DNA from: Saprospiraceae bacterium
GTDB taxonomy: Bacteria > Bacteroidota > Bacteroidia > Chitinophagales > Saprospiraceae
Direction of reading: 5' to 3'
Length of the DNA stretch: 64,000 bases
NCBI GenBank assembly: GCA_020631135.1
Contig: JAHDHU010000005.1
Location: 1-64,000 of the forward strand
Numbering within the stretch: position 1 is the first letter of the stretch; every line of letters starts with the position of its first letter. The translations under genes were made by a program, and so were the position numbers. A model generated the notes under the pieces. That model had not been told where the DNA came from, made no database searches, and saw only the letters and a program-made list of their open reading frames with translations. Positions 18,220-61,888 of the stretch are shown here, in pieces.

Positions 18220-18721
18220 AATACACTTTTTGAATCTTTGGATTTTCAACCCACTTACTCCATTTCTTATTGTAGGTATGCACCTCATTGGTCACTTCTG
18301 ACTTATTGTTAACTACTTCATAGCCTTCATTGGTCCATTCGAAAATACTTCCGTATAAGTTTTTCACTCTTGTATATCCTTTTTTCTGTAGTTTTTCTCC
18401 GATTTTTTCACTGCGGTATCCAATTGAACAATAGACTACAATTGGACAATCTAACTGAATGTCTTTTAAAATTGAAAAGTCCGGATTATCATATCCTATG
18501 TGTATTGCATTAGCAATGTGTGAAACATCAAATTCCTTTTTTTCCCTTGCGTCTAGTAGTAAATATTCCTGTTGATTTTCTTTCAACTCATTGACAGAAA
18601 TAATTTCAATTGTCTCTTTTAATAACCAGTCGATTTTCCTTTTAAACTTTGGATTCGAAACTTGAGCACTTAGAGGTGTTCCGAATAAAACACTAATAAC
18701 TAGCAGTAATAACCTTTTCAT
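18218..18721 (-). CDS. Exported rhodanese-like domain protein
   Basis: This 167-residue protein has a signal peptide (1-20, ending LSAQ) and one rhodanese domain (about 43-140). The active-site loop is CSIGYRS with the persulfide cysteine at C98, and LLDARE is the usual N-terminal motif. It would work in the periplasm; the sulfur donor and acceptor are unknown. Its ATG overlaps the mvaD stop by 4 bp, so the two are translationally coupled, although no functional link is obvious. Confidence 0.87.
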   Translation of the reverse strand: MKRLLLLVISVLFGTPLSAQVSNPKFKRKIDWLLKETIEIISVNELKENQQEYLLLDAREKKEFDVSHIANAIHIGYDNPDFSILKDIQLDCPIVVYCSIGYRSEKIGEKLQKKGYTRVKNLYGSIFEWTNEGYEVVNNKSEVTNEVHTYNKKWSKWVENPKIQKVY

Positions 18722-19788
18722 ATTTTCTTTGGTCCTTGTCCTACTTTATCTCGGATTATCTTTCCATCTAAACAGTATGCTAATAAATATTCTTCCGTAA
18801 AGGAAACCACTTCGTCAAACAAGTCTGAAGGATATAACATATGAATGTTTGGACCAGCATCTAATGTGAAAAAAACAGGATGGTTAGTTCTTTGTCTGAA
18901 GGCTCTGATTTCACGAATTATATTTAATGTATTTGGCTCCATCAAAATATAAGAAGGATTGGAACACATCATTAAGGCGTGTAAAGTCATAGCTTCAGAT
19001 TCCACAATTTCTCCAAAGGTTTTGAGATCACCTTTCTTCATGGCTTTAATAAGCTCTTCAAGATGATGATTAGCCTGTTCGTATCTTGAAGAAGCATAAA
19101 TATTTTCTTCCATAAGTTTATGACCAGCAGTAGAAGAAACCGATTTTTCTTTGGCGCTTACGATCAAAATATCATCATGAAAATCTGCAAAGACAGAATC
19201 AACTTGGTTTTCATATGAAATGGCAAAAAGATCATTCGAATGCTCAATATTAGGGTGCGCTCCCCAAATAGAAAGTTGTGGATAAAGTGATCTACTCGCG
19301 CTTCCTGAGGCTAATCTTGATAAAAAACTTGCTTTTTTTACTGAAAGCGGCTCACCTTGAAATTGAGATTCTATGTCCATTAAACACATAATAAGTGCAG
19401 ACATACTCGATGCTGAAGACGCAATGCCTGAAGAATGTGGAAAAGAATTTGTACTGGATATAATCAACGCTAACTGAGTTATCCACGGAAAATAATTTCT
19501 ATTACCTTCTAAATAGTTTCGAATCTTGGTTCCGAAGGCAATGTTTTTCTCGCCTTCAAAAAAAAACTCCATCTCAATTAATTCATTATCCTCTTTTGGA
19601 TAAAATTTAATCTCTGTTTGAGTATGTGCCGTATCCAGCGTAAAGCTAATCGAGGCATTTCGCGGAAGTTGGTTGCCATGTTTACCCCAATACTTTACTA
19701 GAGCGATATTTGATGGACTTTTCCAGCTAGTACTACCCTCTTTTAACTTAGACTGCTCTATCTTTTTGCCTAACGGATTATAGGTCAT
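18718..19788 (-). CDS. mvaD: Diphosphomevalonate decarboxylase
   Basis: MvaD makes isopentenyl diphosphate from mevalonate diphosphate with ATP, so this organism probably uses the mevalonate route for isoprenoids. The GHMP-kinase fold of 356 residues shows PSNIALVKYWGK near residue 25, the ATP loop FPHSSGIASSASSM and the late TLDAGPNIHML block with the catalytic Asp. It overlaps the rhodanese gene by 4 bp and the upstream DUF4294 gene by 4 bp. No other mevalonate-pathway gene is in the window. Confidence 0.92.
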   Translation of the reverse strand: MTYNPLGKKIEQSKLKEGSTSWKSPSNIALVKYWGKHGNQLPRNASISFTLDTAHTQTEIKFYPKEDNELIEMEFFFEGEKNIAFGTKIRNYLEGNRNYFPWITQLALIISSTNSFPHSSGIASSASSMSALIMCLMDIESQFQGEPLSVKKASFLSRLASGSASRSLYPQLSIWGAHPNIEHSNDLFAISYENQVDSVFADFHDDILIVSAKEKSVSSTAGHKLMEENIYASSRYEQANHHLEELIKAMKKGDLKTFGEIVESEAMTLHALMMCSNPSYILMEPNTLNIIREIRAFRQRTNHPVFFTLDAGPNIHMLYPSDLFDEVVSFTEEYLLAYCLDGKIIRDKVGQGPKKI

Positions 19789-34933: not shown

Positions 34934-34949
34934 TGTTCCACGTGGAACC
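34934..34949. promoter_or_regulatory. parS-like centromere site, copy 1
   Basis: The 14-bp palindrome GTTCCACGTGGAAC (34935-34948) matches the ParB-binding parS core GTTNCACGTGNAAC. The left flank T agrees with the 16-bp consensus and the last base is C instead of A. It lies 4 bp after the peptidase stop and 53 bp from an identical core. Confidence 0.75.
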
Positions 34950-34952
34950 TAG

Positions 34953-34987
34953 AACAGTTGGAGATTTACTTCAACTGTTTTTTTTTT
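34953..34987 (+). terminator. Rho-independent terminator between two parS-like sites
   Basis: AACAGTTG (34953-34960) pairs with CAACTGTT (34972-34979) around an 11-base loop, followed by a T tract through 34987. It ends the peptidase transcript. Confidence 0.8.
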
Positions 34988-35002
34988 GTTCCACGTGGAA
35001 CA
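34987..35002. promoter_or_regulatory. parS-like centromere site, copy 2
   Basis: TGTTCCACGTGGAACA is a perfect 16-bp palindrome and a full match to TGTTNCACGTGNAACA. It begins on the last T of the terminator and precedes the convergent hydrolase stop at 35009. ParB nucleates on such sites to organise and segregate the origin region. Confidence 0.8.
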
Positions 35003-35806: not shown

Positions 35807-36853
35807 TTATCTAGCCTTTATAGTGTAATTAATAAAAAGGCTGACAGATAACAATGCTAATCCAAAAGCTTGATGTAAAACACCTAACCCGACTGGAATG
35901 TTTCCTTTACAATTAATGACGGTTACTATACCTAATATTACTTGGCTCAATAAAATCACCATAAGTATTACGGGTTTCCAACTCTGAAGTTTAGATTCTT
36001 TCAAGAGAAGATATCCCAATCTTAAACCCATAAAAAACAACAGATAAGCAACTAAACGGTGAATGGTCTGTATGAGGGCTGGAAGTAAAAGGTTTTTATC
36101 ATACTGATTAAAATTTTCTAAAGTGTATTCTTCAAGTTGAAAAATTATCGAAGGGATAAAACTTCCATTCATATCAGGCCAAGTAGGATAAAACAAACCT
36201 GCTTTCATTCCAGACATTACTCCACCAAAAAATATTTGTATGGAAACCAAAATTGTAAACGTCAAAGCAGCTTTGCTAAATGAAGACTTTATTTTTTCGA
36301 TAGCAAACCCATAAAAACAGGTCCATAACATGGCAGCATAAACGGAGAAACCAATACACAAATGTAAAGCCAGTTTATACGCATTTACCCAAGGTCTATT
36401 TATAAGTCCACTAGCGACCATTATCCATCCAAAACTAGCTGCCAAGACAGCCAACAGAATCACTGAAAGTAAATATTTTATTAAGGCTTTGTCGATGAAC
36501 TTCAACAATAAAAAACCTATAAAAGGAAAAAGAAAAACAAAACCCATTAAGCGTGCCCAGAGTCTATGTAAATACTCCCAGAAATATATAAACTTAAACG
36601 TACCACTTTCGAAAATCGTACCCATCTCCATACCTTCATTTATCTTTTCATATTGAGGAGTGAGCTTATAAAGCTCAAATTCTTCTTCCCATTGATTATC
36701 GGAAAGTGGAGGTAAAGTTCCTGTAATTATTTCCCATTTAGTAATTGACAAACCAGATCCTGTTAATCTCGTTATTCCACCAACAACGATCTGAATGAAT
36801 AACATAAATAGTCCCAAAAGAAGCCAAAGTCGAACAAGCTTATTATACTTCAT
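35807..36853 (-). CDS. ctaA: COX15/CtaA family heme A synthase
   Basis: CtaA oxidises heme O to heme A for aa3-type cytochrome oxidases. The 348-residue, eight-helix protein starts with LVRLWLLLGLFMLFIQIVVGGITRLTGSGLSI, the family signature, and carries the conserved His in the paired four-helix bundles (for example EYLHRLWAR, ALHLCIGF, QTIHRLVAY, LHQAFG). A consensus promoter sits so close that the mRNA is probably leaderless. ctaB and oxidase genes are not nearby. Confidence 0.93.
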   Translation of the reverse strand: MKYNKLVRLWLLLGLFMLFIQIVVGGITRLTGSGLSITKWEIITGTLPPLSDNQWEEEFELYKLTPQYEKINEGMEMGTIFESGTFKFIYFWEYLHRLWARLMGFVFLFPFIGFLLLKFIDKALIKYLLSVILLAVLAASFGWIMVASGLINRPWVNAYKLALHLCIGFSVYAAMLWTCFYGFAIEKIKSSFSKAALTFTILVSIQIFFGGVMSGMKAGLFYPTWPDMNGSFIPSIIFQLEEYTLENFNQYDKNLLLPALIQTIHRLVAYLLFFMGLRLGYLLLKESKLQSWKPVILMVILLSQVILGIVTVINCKGNIPVGLGVLHQAFGLALLSVSLFINYTIKAR

Positions 36854-37330
36854 GAAACAAAAATATGGAGACTAAAATGAAGATCAATGTAATCATCCAA
36901 AGCTCGTTTTCTTTATAATAGATATAAATAATTTAAAAGAAGCTTTATTATTATTAGCACTGTTAATATGTTTAAAATCATTAAATAAATTGGATTAAAT
37001 ATTCTATTACTAGATATTCCACATTTAATTAACATTATTATTGAATATAACTAATTTATATTCAATTAATTAACATAAATATTATTTTGTAGATAAGTTA
37101 ATGTTAATAACTATAACCTGAATTTATCTTGTGGAGAAGACCCTTTTATAACTGTAAAATTTGAATAAAAAAGTATTATATATAATTAATTTTAATATGT
37201 TTTATAATGCTTGTTAGTTTTCGAGGAGTTATCCACACTAAATATTAAAATTTATGTTGGTATTTAATTTTTGTATTCCTTCTACATCAATATTTTATGG
37301 ATATAGAAAATTATTAATGTTTAAAACTTT
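36854..37330. other. Candidate chromosomal replication origin (oriC)
   Basis: This 477-bp gene-free stretch is extremely AT-rich; the line 37021-37080 holds only 6 G/C in 60 bases. It has a perfect DnaA box TTATCCACA (37229-37237) and an inverted one-mismatch box TGTGGAGAA (37130-37138). An 11-bp direct repeat TTAATTAACAT (37025-37035, 37066-37076) flanks an 11-bp inverted repeat ATTGAATATAA/TTATATTCAAT (37040-37050, 37056-37066). GTTAAT and its complement recur several times. Two parS-like sites lie about 2 kb to the left, and almost all genes to the right run away from it. Confidence 0.55.
36858..36887 (-). promoter_or_regulatory. Bacteroidota-type promoter of ctaA (leaderless)
   Basis: On the minus strand TTG (36885-36887) and TATTTTTG (36858-36865) are 19 bases apart. 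The predicted transcription start falls at about 36853, the A of the ctaA ATG. Confidence 0.65.
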
Positions 37331-37789
37331 ATGAAAGTAGTAATACAAAGAGTAAATAATGCTGAAGTAGATATCCCTTCTGAAAATTATAACCAATCGA
37401 TTGAAAATGGTCTTATGGTCTTATTAGGAATCGAAAATGAAGATAACGCTGATGATATTAATTGGTTAACTAACAAAATTGTCAGTATGCGAATATTTAA
37501 TGATTCAGATGGAATAATGAATTTATCGATTAATGATATTGGCGGATCAATACTATTAGTAAGTCAGTTTACACTTCAAGCCAGTACAAAGAAAGGAAAT
37601 AGACCTTCTTACATAAAAGCCGCAAAGCCAGAAATAGCAGTACCAATTTATAATTCATTTATTATTGAATTAACAAATAAGCTGATGAGTCACAATTTAA
37701 AGACTGGTATTTTTGGCGCCGACATGAAAATTTCTTTAATAAATGACGGACCAGTCACCATAATTATGGATTCTAAAAACAGAGTATGA
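37331..37789 (+). CDS. dtd: D-aminoacyl-tRNA deacylase
   Basis: Dtd hydrolyses D-aminoacyl-tRNAs (and Gly-tRNA-Ala), preventing D-amino acids from entering translation. At 152 residues it has the family length. The two active-site motifs SQFTLQA (about 79-85) and NDGPVTI (about 138-144) are intact, and MKVVIQRVNNAEV is the normal start. It overlaps the mazG-like gene by 4 bp. Confidence 0.95.
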   Translation: MKVVIQRVNNAEVDIPSENYNQSIENGLMVLLGIENEDNADDINWLTNKIVSMRIFNDSDGIMNLSINDIGGSILLVSQFTLQASTKKGNRPSYIKAAKPEIAVPIYNSFIIELTNKLMSHNLKTGIFGADMKISLINDGPVTIIMDSKNRV

Positions 37790-38148
37790 TTTATTTACAC
37801 GAAGTTCAAGATAAAGTTGATCAATGGATTAAGTTAAATGGTGTACGATATTTTGACGAACTAACAAACGCCTTAATATTGAATGAAGAGGTTGGAGAAT
37901 TTTCGAGTTTAGTAGCTCGAATCTATGGTGAGCAGTCCTTTAAAACTATAGAACAAGAGCAGGCGGCTAATGAAAATATAAAAGATGAGCTAGGTGATAT
38001 ATTTTTTGTTATCGTTTGTTTAGCCAATCAGATGGACATCTCAATCGAAGAGATATTTAAAAAAAACTTAGCAAAGAAAACCAAAAGGGATAAACATAGA
38101 CACCATAATAATCCGAAGTTGAATACAAGAAACTCCAAAAGTCAATAA
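37786..38148 (+). CDS. MazG-like nucleotide pyrophosphohydrolase
   Basis: This is a 120-residue all-alpha NTP pyrophosphohydrolase of the MazG/dUTPase superfamily. Metal-binding acids are visible in LNEEVGEFSSLVAR (EExxE pattern, about 29-42) and in DELGDIFFVIVCLA (ExxD pattern, about 66-79). It should remove pyrophosphate from non-canonical NTPs. The start overlaps dtd by 4 bp; dtd-mazG pairs are frequent in Bacteroidota. Confidence 0.88.
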   Translation: MIYLHEVQDKVDQWIKLNGVRYFDELTNALILNEEVGEFSSLVARIYGEQSFKTIEQEQAANENIKDELGDIFFVIVCLANQMDISIEEIFKKNLAKKTKRDKHRHHNNPKLNTRNSKSQ

Positions 38149-47103: not shown

Positions 47104-48159
47104 ATGATCTGGATCGTAGTAACTATAATTATTTTATTTGCCCTATTTATAATCATTTCTAAATCCCTTTCTACTGCACCATACAAAGGTCCAATAACAC
47201 CTCATTTTAATGGACAAAGATTTAAAAACCCAAGCGGTGTTCCTGCTAATGGTTTTGATAAAGTCTTTCGTTATCTCAGAGAATCAACCAAAGAAAATTG
47301 GTTAATTAGGAACCCAAATATCTATGATAAAAAAATAAGAGATGCGACCGATGAAGAGCTTCGATTTTTATGGGTCAATCACAGTACTTTCCTCATACAA
47401 ATAGGAAATACCAACATTTTGACTGATCCCATTTGGTCAAAGTATTGTAGTCCCATACCTACGCCAATGCTCAAAAGAAAAAGACCATCAGGTATAGCAC
47501 TAAATAATTTGCCGAGGATTGACCTAGTGTTGATTAGTCATAACCATTATGACCACATGGATAGTAATACAATCAAACTAATATCAGAAAAATGGAATCC
47601 AACTTTTATCACGCCTTTGGGCAATGAACAAATTCTAAAAAAATATGGTGCTAAAAAAGTTATTGAGTTAGACTGGTGGAAATCGACAGAAACACATAAA
47701 ATAAAGCTAAGTTGTACACCAACTAATCATTTTTCGAGTAGAGGCACATTTGACCGAAACACTTCTTTGTGGGGAGGTTTTATCTTAGAAAAATCAGACA
47801 AAAAAATATATTTCGTGGGGGATACAGGATATAGTGAGAATCTGTTTGATCAGATTGGTGTAAAATATGGACCAATTGATTTGTCATTTATTCCGATTGG
47901 AGCCTATAAACCAGAATGGTTTATGTCGCCGATCCACGTAAATCCTGAAGAAGCAGTTATTCTTCATAAAGAGGTAAAGAGCAAATTATCGGTTGCCATG
48001 CATTTTGGAACTTTTGCTTTAGCAGATGATGGACCTAAAGAAGCAATTGAAAAATTAGATCATGCCAAATCAGTTCACGAAATAAATGAAGATGAGTTTT
48101 TAGTTATTGAAGAAGGACAGCTCTATTCACTAACTAATACACTTCATCTGCTCAATTAA
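47104..48159 (+). CDS. MBL-fold metallo-hydrolase (NAPE-PLD/UlaG-like), membrane-anchored
   Basis: This 351-residue metallo-beta-lactamase-fold protein has the dinuclear zinc motif SHNHYDHMD (H146, H148, D150, H151) and later metal ligands in FVGDTGYS and MHFGTFAL. It resembles the group that includes bacterial NAPE-phospholipase D relatives. I start it at ATG 47104 because an upstream ATG (47059) would place a terminator inside the gene. From 47104 the protein opens with one membrane helix (about 1-20). The 3' end overlaps convergent truA by 30 bp. Confidence 0.85.
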   Translation: MIWIVVTIIILFALFIIISKSLSTAPYKGPITPHFNGQRFKNPSGVPANGFDKVFRYLRESTKENWLIRNPNIYDKKIRDATDEELRFLWVNHSTFLIQIGNTNILTDPIWSKYCSPIPTPMLKRKRPSGIALNNLPRIDLVLISHNHYDHMDSNTIKLISEKWNPTFITPLGNEQILKKYGAKKVIELDWWKSTETHKIKLSCTPTNHFSSRGTFDRNTSLWGGFILEKSDKKIYFVGDTGYSENLFDQIGVKYGPIDLSFIPIGAYKPEWFMSPIHVNPEEAVILHKEVKSKLSVAMHFGTFALADDGPKEAIEKLDHAKSVHEINEDEFLVIEEGQLYSLTNTLHLLN

Positions 48160-48930
48160 CACTTCAGATAATTTTGATTCTACTGGTTTTTGAAATTCAG
48201 GGTATTCTAACTGATACAAATACAAACCTTGTGGATAGGCAAACTGAACAGCATCTTTGCTTCTGTTGGACTGAAGATACTCTTTAAAAGAATCCACAGA
48301 CATACTGCCATCCAAGACTTTCAATAATCTGTACATAATAATCCGCACCATTCCTCTTAGAAACCGATTTGAAGTGATTTCAAAACAAAATCTTGTTTTT
48401 TCATCGTCAGCGTATAAATTACATTCTTTGATTTTACAAATTGTATTGTCAACTTTATCCGGAGTTTTACTAAAAGCACCAAAATCATTCGAATTTTGAA
48501 TAAGCTTAATGCACTGAATCATTTCATCCAAAAAGAGGTTATCACACGAGATCAGGGTGCTTAAATCTTTCGTGAATACATTTTTATTTAAATGAAAAAA
48601 ATATCTATAAGTTCTACTTCTTGCACTATATCTAGCATTGAATGATTCTGCGACAGGGGATATATCATAAACGCATATATCCTTTGGCAACATTCTGTTG
48701 AGTTTATAGATTAAATTGGGCTGAATATTATTAGAAGTAAAGTGGGCAAAATATTGAAGAGCATGCACACCTTTATCTGTTCGCCCGCAACCAAATACAC
48801 CAATTTCTTCTTTCATTAATATTGATAGATTCCGTTCAATATTCTCTTGAATGGTATCAGAAGTATTTTTTTGTCTTTGCCAACCGTTAAAATCGGTGCC
48901 TTTGTATGCCAAATGAACTAGAAATTTCAC
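48130..48930 (-). CDS. truA: tRNA pseudouridine(38-40) synthase TruA
   Basis: TruA isomerises uridines 38-40 in the anticodon stem-loop. The catalytic Asp sits in GCGRTDKGVHA, and ARSRTYRYFF and FLRGMVRIIM are further family blocks. I prefer the GTG at 48930 (KFLVHLAYKGTDFNGW follows, the usual N-terminus, 266 residues). An upstream ATG at 48954 would add eight atypical residues. It is the only minus-strand gene between 37.3 and 60.8 kb. The last ten codons overlap the end of the MBL gene. Confidence 0.92.
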   Translation of the reverse strand: MKFLVHLAYKGTDFNGWQRQKNTSDTIQENIERNLSILMKEEIGVFGCGRTDKGVHALQYFAHFTSNNIQPNLIYKLNRMLPKDICVYDISPVAESFNARYSARSRTYRYFFHLNKNVFTKDLSTLISCDNLFLDEMIQCIKLIQNSNDFGAFSKTPDKVDNTICKIKECNLYADDEKTRFCFEITSNRFLRGMVRIIMYRLLKVLDGSMSVDSFKEYLQSNRSKDAVQFAYPQGLYLYQLEYPEFQKPVESKLSEVLIEQMKCIS

Positions 48931-49010
48931 AAATACGAAGTTAATTAATGTCATACTGGCAGTAAAATGCCATTGGTACGGAATTGGTCATAAAAAGCAT
49001 AGGAATGCCT

Positions 49011-49039: not shown

Positions 49040-52000
49040 ATGTTCAATTTTATAAAGAAAGTATTTGGTACTAAATACGAAAGAGATGTTAAGGAGTATA
49101 TGCCTTTGGTAGATACTACCAATGAATATTTTGAATCGTATTCTAGTCTAAGTAATGACGAGCTCAGAAATAATACCACAATATTTAGAAATCGCATTAA
49201 AGGCCATTTGGAAGGAATCAACCAAGATATAGACAACTTACGTAGTGAGGCCCAAGCAGAGAAGGATTTGGAGAAGAGAGAAGATATATTTAATGATATT
49301 GACGAACTTATAAAGGAGAGGGATAAGCATTTAGAAGAAGTTCTTAAAGAAATCTTACCTGAGGCCTTCGCCACGGTAAAAGAAACCGCGAGAAGATTTA
49401 AGGATAATGAGACCATTACTGTTACAGCAAGTGAATACGACAAAGAGCTTTCAATAAAAAATGATTTTGTAACGATAGAAGGAGAAAAAGCAATTTGGAA
49501 AAATCATTGGGTTGCTGCTGGTGGTGAGATAACATGGAATATGCTACATTATGACGTGCAGTTGATTGGAGGAATGGTGTTGCATGATGGAAAGATTGCA
49601 GAAATGCAAACAGGTGAAGGAAAAACATTGGTTGCTACTTTACCCGCTTATTTAAATGGTCTTTCTGGTAAAGGTGTTCATGTTATTACGGTTAATGATT
49701 ATTTGGCAAGAAGAGATTGCGAATGGATTGGTCCAATCTTTCAGTTTTTAGGATTAACCATAGATTGCATAGATAGATACAAACCCCATTCTGATCAAAG
49801 AAAGAAAGCTTATAAGGCTGATATTACCTATGGGACAAATAATGAGTTTGGATTCGATTACCTGAGAGACAACATGGTGCGTACACCTAATGAGCTGGTT
49901 CAACAGAAGCATCATTTTGCCATGGTAGATGAGGTAGATTCTGTACTGATCGATGACGCCAGAACGCCATTAATTATCTCTGGTCCAGTCCCAAAAGGTT
50001 CAGAAGAGCAAGAGTATCAAAATCTTAAACCCAAGATAGAAAGGTTGGTTGCTCAGCAAAGAAAAATGGCTACCAACTATTTAGCGACAGCAAAAAAATT
50101 ATTTGCGGAAGGGGATACTGGATATGAAGAAGGTGAATGCGGTATGGCACTTTTGCGTGCTTATCGTGCTTTACCTAAACACAGGCCATTAATTAAATTT
50201 TTAAGCGAAGAGGGAGTAAAAGTTACTTTGCAAAAGGCAGAAAATTTTTACATGGCAGAGCAAAACAAAAACATGCATTTAGTCGATGCGCCCTTATTGT
50301 TTACCATCGATGAAAAAAACAGGCAAGTTGAGTTAACCGACAATGGATCTGAATTTTTAGCTAAAGGAGAAAACGATAGTTCATTTTTTGTTATGCCAGA
50401 TATCACGCTGGAAATGCAAGAACTAGAAGAACAAGAAAAGGAATTAGGCGAAAAGCTTTCGGAAGAAAGAGACGCTATTATTTCAAATTTTTCCATTAAA
50501 TCAAAACGTCTTCATAGTGTAAGTCAACTATTAAAAGCTTACACCTTGTTTGAAAGAGATGAAGAATATGTCGTTCTCGATAACGAAGTAAAAATAGTTG
50601 ACGAGTCGACAGGTCGTATGATGGAAGGTAGAAGGTATTCAGACGGATTACACCAAGCTTTAGAGGCCAAGGAAAATGTCAAGGTGGGTGAAATTACTCA
50701 AACTTATGCCACAGTTACGCTACAAAATTATTTCAGAATGTATCACAAGCTTGCAGGTATGACTGGTACTGCTGAAACTGAGGCAAGCGAATTTTGGGAA
50801 ATTTATAAATTAGATGTAGTTGTCATTCCCACAAATAGACCTATTGTTAGAGATGATAAAGAAGACTTGGTATACAAGACATCAAGAGAAAAATACAATG
50901 CAGTAATCGATGAAATTGATAGATTAACTTCTCAAGGAAGACCTGTCTTGGTCGGTACTACTTCGGTTGATATCTCTGAGAAATTAAGTCGAATGCTTAA
51001 ACTAAAAGGTATATCGCATAATGTATTAAATGCCAAACAACATCAGAGGGAAGCTGACATTGTAGCTGAAGCAGGAAATGCTGGAAAAGTTACTATTGCC
51101 ACAAACATGGCTGGTAGGGGAACTGATATTAAATTGAGCCAAGAAGTAAAAGATGCTGGCGGTCTAGCAATTGTAGCTACCGAACGACACGATTCAAGAA
51201 GGGTAGATAGACAGTTAAGAGGTAGAGCAGGAAGACAAGGAGATCCGGGTTCATCCCAGTTTTATGTTTCTTTAGAAGACAACCTTATGAGATTATTCCA
51301 ATCTGACAGATTGGCTAAGGTTATGGACAGGATGGGTCATCAAGAAGGTGAGGTGTTACAACATTCGATGGTTTCAAAATCACTGGAACGAGCACAAAAG
51401 AAAGTCGAAGAAAATAATTTTGGAATTCGAAAAAGATTGTTAGAGTACGATGATGTTATGAATATCCAGAGAGAAGCGATCTATAAAAGAAGGAAAAATG
51501 CACTTAACGGAGAAAGATTAGCAGTTGATTTAAATAATATGTTTAGTGGTCTAACCGAAAACATAGCCATAGACAACAAGCGAGGTGGGGATTTCGAATC
51601 ATTTAGAAACGAATCATTATCCACCATAGGAGTAGACCCGATTGTGGAAGAAGCTTTATTCAATGAGGCAGCAGAAAATGAAGTAGTAGAAGTTTATCAA
51701 CAAGCAGTTGCAGAAGCATACAACAAAAAGTCTGAGCAAATAACACAGATGTTACTACCAGTCATCAAAAGGGTTTACGAAAATGAAGGACACAAATACA
51801 AGCGTATCGCGATACCTTTTTCAGATGGAAGAGCTAAGCCATTAAATATTGCAGCAGACTTAAAAGAGGCAATAGATTCTAATGGAGACACCATTATGAA
51901 GGATATTGAAAAGGCTGTTACGCTTGCTTTAATTGATGATAGTTGGAAAGAACATTTACGTTCTATGGATGAACTTAAAGAAACCGTCCAATCAGCGTCA

Positions 52001-60820: not shown

Positions 60821-61888
60821 TTATACTTCTTCTGCGAGCTCTTTCCCATTTTCGGGAATTACGACCACTTCTTCTTCATCGACCAATTCTGGATTAAAAC
60901 AAGCTTTAATCTTTTCTTCTATCTCCTCGGCAACTTCCGGATTGTCAAGTAAAAATTGTTTAGCACCTTCTCTTCCTTGTGCAATTTTAGCATCGTTATA
61001 ACTGTACCAAGATCCACTTTTTCCGATAATTTCTTTGTCAACTCCAATGTCGATGATTTCACCTGTTTTAGAAATACCCATTCCAAACATGATGTCAAAG
61101 AAGGTGATTCTAAATGGCGGTGCCAATTTATTTTTAACAACTTTAACCTTGACTGGGTTTCCTACTACATTTCCTTCTTTATCTTTTATAGCTGCTCCAG
61201 ATTTACGAATATCTAATCTGATTGAGGCATAAAACTTGAGTGCGTTTCCACCGGTGGTTGTTTCAGGATTCCCGAACATCACACCAATTTTTTCTCTTAA
61301 CTGATTAATAAAAATGCAGCAACATCCAGTTCGACCAATGGTACCGGTCAATTTTCTCATTGCTTGCGACATTAATCTGGCTTGAAGACCCATTTTTGAG
61401 TCTCCCATTTCGCCTTCTATTTCAGATTTAGGGACCAATGCAGCTACAGAATCAATTACAAGTATATCTATCGCTCCAGAACGGATTAAATTTTCAGCGA
61501 TCTCTAAGGCTTGCTCACCATTATCCGGCTGAGAGATCAAAAGATTTTCAGTATCAACGCCCAATGCCTCAGCATAAAAGCGATCAAAGGCGTGTTCGGC
61601 GTCAATGATTGCAGCAATGCCACCATTTTTTTGACATTCGGCGATTGCATGAATTGCTAAAGTGGTTTTACCAGAAGATTCTGGTCCATATATTTCGACG
61701 ACTCTTCCTTTAGGTAAACCGCCTATTCCAAGAGCAATATCTAAACCCAAAGATCCTGTTGAAATGGATTCTACATTGACAACTTGTTTGTCGCCTAATT
61801 TCATTATGGTACCCTTACCATATGTTTTTTCTAATTTGTCTAATGCAAGACCGAGGGCTTTTAATTTAGCTTCTTTTTCCTTTGACAT
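60821..61888 (-). CDS. recA: Recombinase RecA
   Basis: RecA forms filaments on ssDNA for strand exchange and SOS signalling. The 355-residue protein has Walker [27 protein letters not shown], and the loop 1 and loop 2 regions ([33 protein letters not shown]). A variable acidic tail ([18 protein letters not shown]) closes it. A 16-bp palindrome 77 bp upstream may be an operator. Confidence 0.97.

Follow-up and report, generated by a model that had tools for sequence, protein, structure and literature searches.

The AT-rich ctaA-dtd gap as the probable chromosomal replication origin of Saprospiraceae, at a distance from dnaA

The gap between the ctaA and dtd genes of a Saprospiraceae bacterium raises the question of whether chromosomal replication starts there, at a site that does not adjoin dnaA. 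The window, i.e., the whole stretch of DNA analysed (64,000 nucleotides), covers the greater part of the 69,902-bp contig C3; the assembly totals 2.75 Mb in 105 contigs and is 73% complete. At the contig edge, positions 1-49 carry the 3' part of a tRNA. The original prediction proposed an origin in a gene-free, extremely AT-rich region, and this description is accurate: the gap is 477 bp long with a GC content of 18.9% and overlaps the 477-bp stretch that has the lowest GC content in the window (18.4%); the next-lowest stretch elsewhere reaches 24.9%. The flanking genes are divergent, and dtd is followed by the MazG-type gene and then by a long series of genes on the plus strand. As had been noticed, genes point away from the gap up to 60.8 kb: all clear genes at 37.3-60.8 kb (including secA at 49040) are on the plus strand except for a tRNA pseudouridine synthase (truA-like) gene at 48130-48954, and minus-strand recA comes next at 60821. 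The gene order at the locus is the same in congener G001, and ctaA and dtd are divergent over a short gap in approx. 66 of 150 genomes of the family. An Rfam search of the gap matched no family.

All sequence items that had been listed for the gap, including the GTTAAT/ATTAAC repeats, are present, though the GTTAAT repeats constitute weaker evidence. The 11-bp inverted repeat and its flanking repeat do exist, and the hairpin at 37040-37066 folds better than shuffled sequences as single-stranded DNA (z -3.3). However, the inverted repeat is absent from the nearest congener, and the hairpin, likewise weaker evidence for an origin, was given no weight.

DnaA boxes, in turn, are clustered in the gap beyond chance. 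The predicted perfect box at 37229 and inverted one-mismatch box at 37130 are both found, and together with a box that had been overlooked (Table 1), they make up three boxes with at most one mismatch vs. approx. 0.1 expected from dinucleotide shuffles. When the window's own gap is analysed together with 40 homologous ctaA-dtd gaps of Saprospiraceae, 142 such boxes are observed vs. 8.8 expected from dinucleotide shuffles, and exact boxes number 19 vs. 0.2. In the same 41 gaps, 300 letter permutations of the DnaA box give a mean of 8.6 and a maximum of 54 (from a permutation that is the box in shifted form), while the mirror of the box gives 16. Moreover, TTATCCACA emerges, with no motif supplied, as the most widespread 9-mer with at least three G/C in the gaps, and congeners G001 and G002 possess a counterpart of the 37229 box at -101 to -105 from dtd. 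The weak box motif TTATTAACA likewise exceeds expectation in the 41 gaps (18 vs. 3.2), and TGTTAGTA is enriched as well; some copies of the latter form the module's second box (see below), and for TGTTAGTA taken alone, no fixed distance from DnaA boxes was found. The gap on the ctaA side usually contains at least 2 boxes and up to 16; in two other gaps among the 41, no box has fewer than two mismatches. Where dtd no longer lies nearby, ctaA is still accompanied by 6 (G088), 6 (G151), and 16 (G083) boxes per 500 bp. In G088 (C1, approx. 2.35 Mb), box clusters flank ctaA on both sides, which a recent rearrangement may explain, along with the shallow skew change of that genome. In G083, clusters of 14 and 16 boxes per 500 bp lie approx. 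7 kb apart (C1, 2,044,940 and 2,052,340; L181 and L182), one of them overlapping parS sites, and may represent a bipartite origin.

The densest box cluster of the window's contig is found at 19277-19603, where 330 bp contain four boxes with at most one mismatch, one of them perfect. These boxes are inside a minus-strand coding gene (18718-19788), which, judged by eye, encodes a putative diphosphomevalonate decarboxylase. The cluster was rejected as a second candidate, being intragenic and not among the densest places in two congeners.

The most specific part of the gap, a module at 36945-36977, had been overlooked and is a new result of the present analysis. Toward ctaA, the module consists of a DnaA box, a second box that overlaps the first by one base, four mostly C/G bases, and a series of TNA triplets, in which, on the box strand, T and A are near invariant and the middle base is mostly A or G. 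It is present in 37 of the 41 gaps, always on one strand and mostly approx. 90-170 bp from ctaA. Each gap was scored by a fixed-width model trained on the remaining gaps; scores reach 44, vs. a 99% shuffle level of 5.8 and a highest score of 17.4 among 1025 shuffled gaps. The module of the window (minus strand) scores 31.1 with G000 excluded from training and, with up to three mismatches allowed, is the single match in the 2.75-Mb assembly. Triplet runs are also in excess in the gaps (TA[AGT]x4, 33 vs. 8.4), and they share their sequence context.

Table 1. Features of the ctaA-dtd locus (positions in the window)
Feature	Position	Strand	Evidence or remark
Candidate oriC, ctaA-dtd intergenic region	36854..37330		low GC, box enrichment, homologous skew switch in six genomes
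ctaA/COX15, heme A synthase, left neighbour	35807..36853	-	PF02628, E=4e-80
dtd, D-aminoacyl-tRNA deacylase, right neighbour	37331..37789	+	TIGR00256, PF02580
MazG-type pyrophosphohydrolase, next after dtd	37786..38148	+	PF03819, E=9e-15
DnaA box TTATCCACA, perfect	37229..37237	+	motif match
DnaA box TTCTCCACA, 1 mismatch	37130..37138	-	motif match
DnaA box TTATCTACA, 1 mismatch, overlooked originally	37088..37096	-	motif match
Weak DnaA box TTATTAACA, 2 mismatches	37102..37110	-	motif match
11-bp inverted repeat ATTGAATATAA/TTATATTCAAT, 5-nt loop	37040-37050/37056-37066		perfect; inside repeat carrying TTAATTAACAT
First module box TTTTAAACA	36969..36977	-	degenerate here (3 mismatches); TTATCCACR in many relatives
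Second module box ATATTAACA, degenerate, 3 mismatches	36961..36969	-	37 relatives share the consensus WAYYMACA, with hardly any change in ACA
4-bp spacer GTGC, second box to triplets	36957..36960	-	length conserved in all 37 modules that the fixed-width model detects; C/G-rich in relatives
TNA triplet repeat TAATAATAATAA, DnaA-trio-like	36945..36956	-	module score
Putative duplex-unwinding stretch, ctaA side of triplets	36854..36944		position as in the published basal unwinding system (BUS)
parS site 1 TGTTCCACGTGGAACC	34934..34949		motif match
parS site 2 TGTTCCACGTGGAACA	34987..35002		1 mismatch to query, perfect palindrome

The window alone does not decide whether the gap is an origin; relatives from the family Saprospiraceae do. 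Within the window, the minimum of the raw cumulative GC skew, misleading when taken alone, lies at 20.7 kb, and between 37 and 60 kb the skew has positive values almost throughout, so the earlier judgment that the window's skew was not decisive was fair. Because raw skew mixes gene direction with replication, G vs. C was compared at four-fold degenerate sites in sampled stretches, with the genes of each strand kept apart. In five genomes, from left to right across the gap, G increases in plus-strand genes and decreases in minus-strand genes; therefore, the change is an effect of replication, not of coding. In particular, eleven sampled stretches of the 1.258-Mb contig C11 of G069, covering 1-1,220 kb, all have one sign, and the change point is placed at 1,222,250 (2-log-unit range 1,220,500-1,222,500), in the genome's own ctaA-dtd gap (1,221,790-1,222,260). 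No switch accompanies dnaA, which is found at 286 kb on the same contig. In the closed genome G083, the skew flips at approx. 2.05-2.1 Mb, where parS, ctaA, and the clusters of 14-16 boxes sit, and its dnaA (0.6 kb) shows neither a skew flip nor a box cluster. Pooled over six genomes, the change point falls between -250 and +1500 from dtd. The skew change near the locus is shallow and broad in closed G088, and the best-fit change point of the window's own contig, imprecise when taken alone, is 8-21 kb to the right of the gap (7 log-units better than the gap). A strand-corrected switch, as expected of an oriC, is thus found in relatives and in the pooled data, with imprecise placement on the own contig. 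The skew check proposed originally has the same outcome when run on relatives: the switch is at the ctaA-dtd locus, not at dnaA, in G069, in G083, and in the pooled genomes, and it coincides with the module in G439 (see below).

As dnaA was not found in the incomplete assembly of the window, its distance from the locus and the proposed refutation tests were assessed in relatives. dnaA and the locus are on different contigs in G001, G002, G007, G012, G020, G028, and G009, 936 kb apart on one contig in G069, and dnaA is megabases from parS in the closed or nearly closed genomes G088, G151, G083, and G153. An origin commonly, though not necessarily, adjoins dnaA; in these relatives, it does not. 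A better DnaA-box cluster at dnaA was sought in relatives, and none was found: dnaA neighbourhoods contain 0-1 boxes per 500 bp vs. usually at least 2 on the ctaA side. The skew switch, the boxes, and the distance of dnaA in relatives thus support the prediction of an origin that does not adjoin dnaA.

The two parS-like sites reported approx. 2 kb from the gap were confirmed. The perfect GTTCCACGTGGAAC sites in the whole assembly are only two and match this pair, which is located 2.3 kb to the left of the gap; in relatives that possess the locus, parS is approx. 2-5 kb away. ParB is encoded in contig C80 of the window's assembly, and thus the TGTTNCACGTGNAACA palindrome near the origin and the ParB protein, as expected of a chromosomal parS system, are both present. 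Where the distance is measurable, parB is far from parS, including in G083 and G088; in G439, parB (3,237,503) is far from the origin.

A search of 296 genomes from the phylum recovered the module pattern beyond Saprospiraceae too: 11 genomes match, most of them from a single further family within this order, and none matches the reversed pattern. In that family, the module is located inside box-rich gaps that are not beside ctaA or dtd; at the three loci inspected, nadA flanks it on one side, with a variable gene on the other side. In the closed genome G439 of this family, the module is placed at 640 kb, around which negative skew gives way to positive; the skew switches back between 2.12 and 2.35 Mb, a range that includes the antipode, and dnaA is at 2.54 Mb (2,539,354), i.e., close to the replication terminus. 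G439 is an independent test of the module as a mark of the origin, and the module passed it. G319, from the same phylum, has two full dnaA genes (C1, 554 and 1718581) and, 12 kb from one of them, a module-like, box-rich gap (L241, C1, 13000).

Could the gap be only a long divergent promoter region that serves ctaA and dtd, with an AT content and boxes that reflect transcription regulated by DnaA? It does separate divergent genes and contains eight sigma-70-like matches, a number equal to that in shuffled sequences. However, the gap coincides with the skew switch and parS in many genomes, ctaA and dtd no longer form a divergent pair in G088, G151, and G083, yet the box clusters remain by ctaA, and in another family, the module occurs at the skew switch beside different genes. 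With these observations, a promoter alone is very improbable.

There is a small chance that replication starts outside the gap but close to it, e.g., 8-20 kb rightward or at the parS sites, in which case the gap would be an accessory, datA-like DnaA locus or one half of a bipartite origin. The better fit of the own contig's skew 8-21 kb to the right agrees with this proposal, as does the presence in G083 of a second box cluster at the parS sites, separated by 7 kb from that upstream of ctaA. The G069 change point within the gap, the pooled change point at the gap (-250 to +1500 from dtd), and the unwinding-type module inside the gap argue against it; a bipartite origin would also be compatible with an oriC in the gap. 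The absence of dnaA from the window's assembly leaves room for an origin at dnaA, as in most bacteria, with the ctaA-dtd locus serving as a segregation centre only. Nevertheless, this arrangement is already contradicted in relatives, where the family's dnaA loci have 0-1 boxes and no skew switch, and by the near-terminal dnaA of G439, and it deserves hardly any credence.

Taken together, the sequence elements with their conserved occurrence and strand, the switch in skew, the linkage to parS, and the remoteness of dnaA in relatives indicate that the ctaA-dtd gap is very probably the chromosomal oriC. For the mechanism, we infer that DnaA binds and unwinds the origin, that helicase is loaded, and that replication begins in both directions, as follows. 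DnaA would bind to the boxes dispersed over the gap (37088, 37130, 37229, and weaker ones) and to the overlapping boxes at 36961-36977. From the boxes, by analogy with BUS, a DnaA filament may extend onto one strand of the triplet repeat (36945-36956) and would then melt the AT-rich DNA toward ctaA. The helicase would presumably be loaded at the melted stretch, and two forks would depart in opposite directions. Finally, ParB, encoded elsewhere, is expected to bind the parS pair that lies 2.3 kb left of the gap and to segregate the new origins.

More tentatively, with somewhat less than an even chance, this Bacteroidota order might possess a distinct unwinding module, in which two boxes with a one-base overlap lead into a TNA tract instead of 3'-GAT-5', and which relocates as a whole from one gene neighbourhood to another and identifies the origin irrespective of dnaA and parB. 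The records of three closed or nearly closed relatives open within approx. 600 bases of dnaA. Records opened there, as is often done, can miss the Saprospiraceae origin by up to half a chromosome, and a misplaced origin affects estimates of replication rate from metagenomes, gene-dosage studies, and the design of origin plasmids. The short module, which occurs once in the window's assembly, offers a way to seek the origin in draft genomes, and its altered triplet provides a natural test of the bases that DnaA needs on single-stranded DNA.

In the literature searched, no paper on a Saprospiraceae origin was found. E. coli oriC contains DnaA boxes and an AT-rich unwinding element, is located away from dnaA, and has an R1 box that points to the unwinding element; E. 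coli is not known to have parS. The ctaA-dtd gap resembles it in its DnaA boxes, AT-rich stretch, and location apart from dnaA; unlike E. coli oriC, the gap has fewer strong boxes and parS nearby.

The BUS of Bacillus subtilis oriC consists of two tandem DnaA boxes, a short G/C-containing spacer, a triplet repeat, and AT-rich DNA, with 10-13 bp between the better box and the triplets (PMC6669920, PMC8287927, PMC10721633). Similarly, the module has two boxes, a spacer, and triplets that edge AT-rich DNA, and its better box is 12 bp from the triplets. Unlike in the BUS, the two boxes overlap by 1 bp and the locus is away from dnaA. The published search rule for BUS asks for three or more triplets with a middle A, located 0-16 bp from one DnaA box or a pair of them. 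This rule describes the module in 37 of 41 gaps, with fixed spacing and on one strand; in the window, both boxes, at three mismatches each, exceed the published limit of two for the better box. On the box strand, the published triplet complement is 5'-CTA-3' or 5'-YTD-3' (PMC8235120). The module triplets read TNA on that strand (3'-TAY-5' on the other) vs. the published consensus 3'-GAT-5'; they depart from the consensus and satisfy only the relaxed middle-A rule. By their sequence, the TNA triplets are a candidate variant of the DnaA-trio.

Segregation of chromosomes by parS/ParB has been reviewed (PMC7022226). As in such systems, near-perfect TGTTNCACGTGNAACA palindromes lie approx. 2-5 kb from the origin; a difference is that parB is far from both parS and the origin where this is measurable. 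The locus can be regarded, with good confidence in its position, as a DnaA-dependent bacterial oriC, which is an ordinary object found in an uncommon location. It has precedents, since DoriC records oriCs distant from dnaA, e.g., in Synechococcus lividus PCC 6715 (PMC6323995). Like these, the Saprospiraceae origin has a DnaA-box cluster apart from dnaA; unlike them, it is fixed beside ctaA in one family, together with parS and a shared unwinding-type module.
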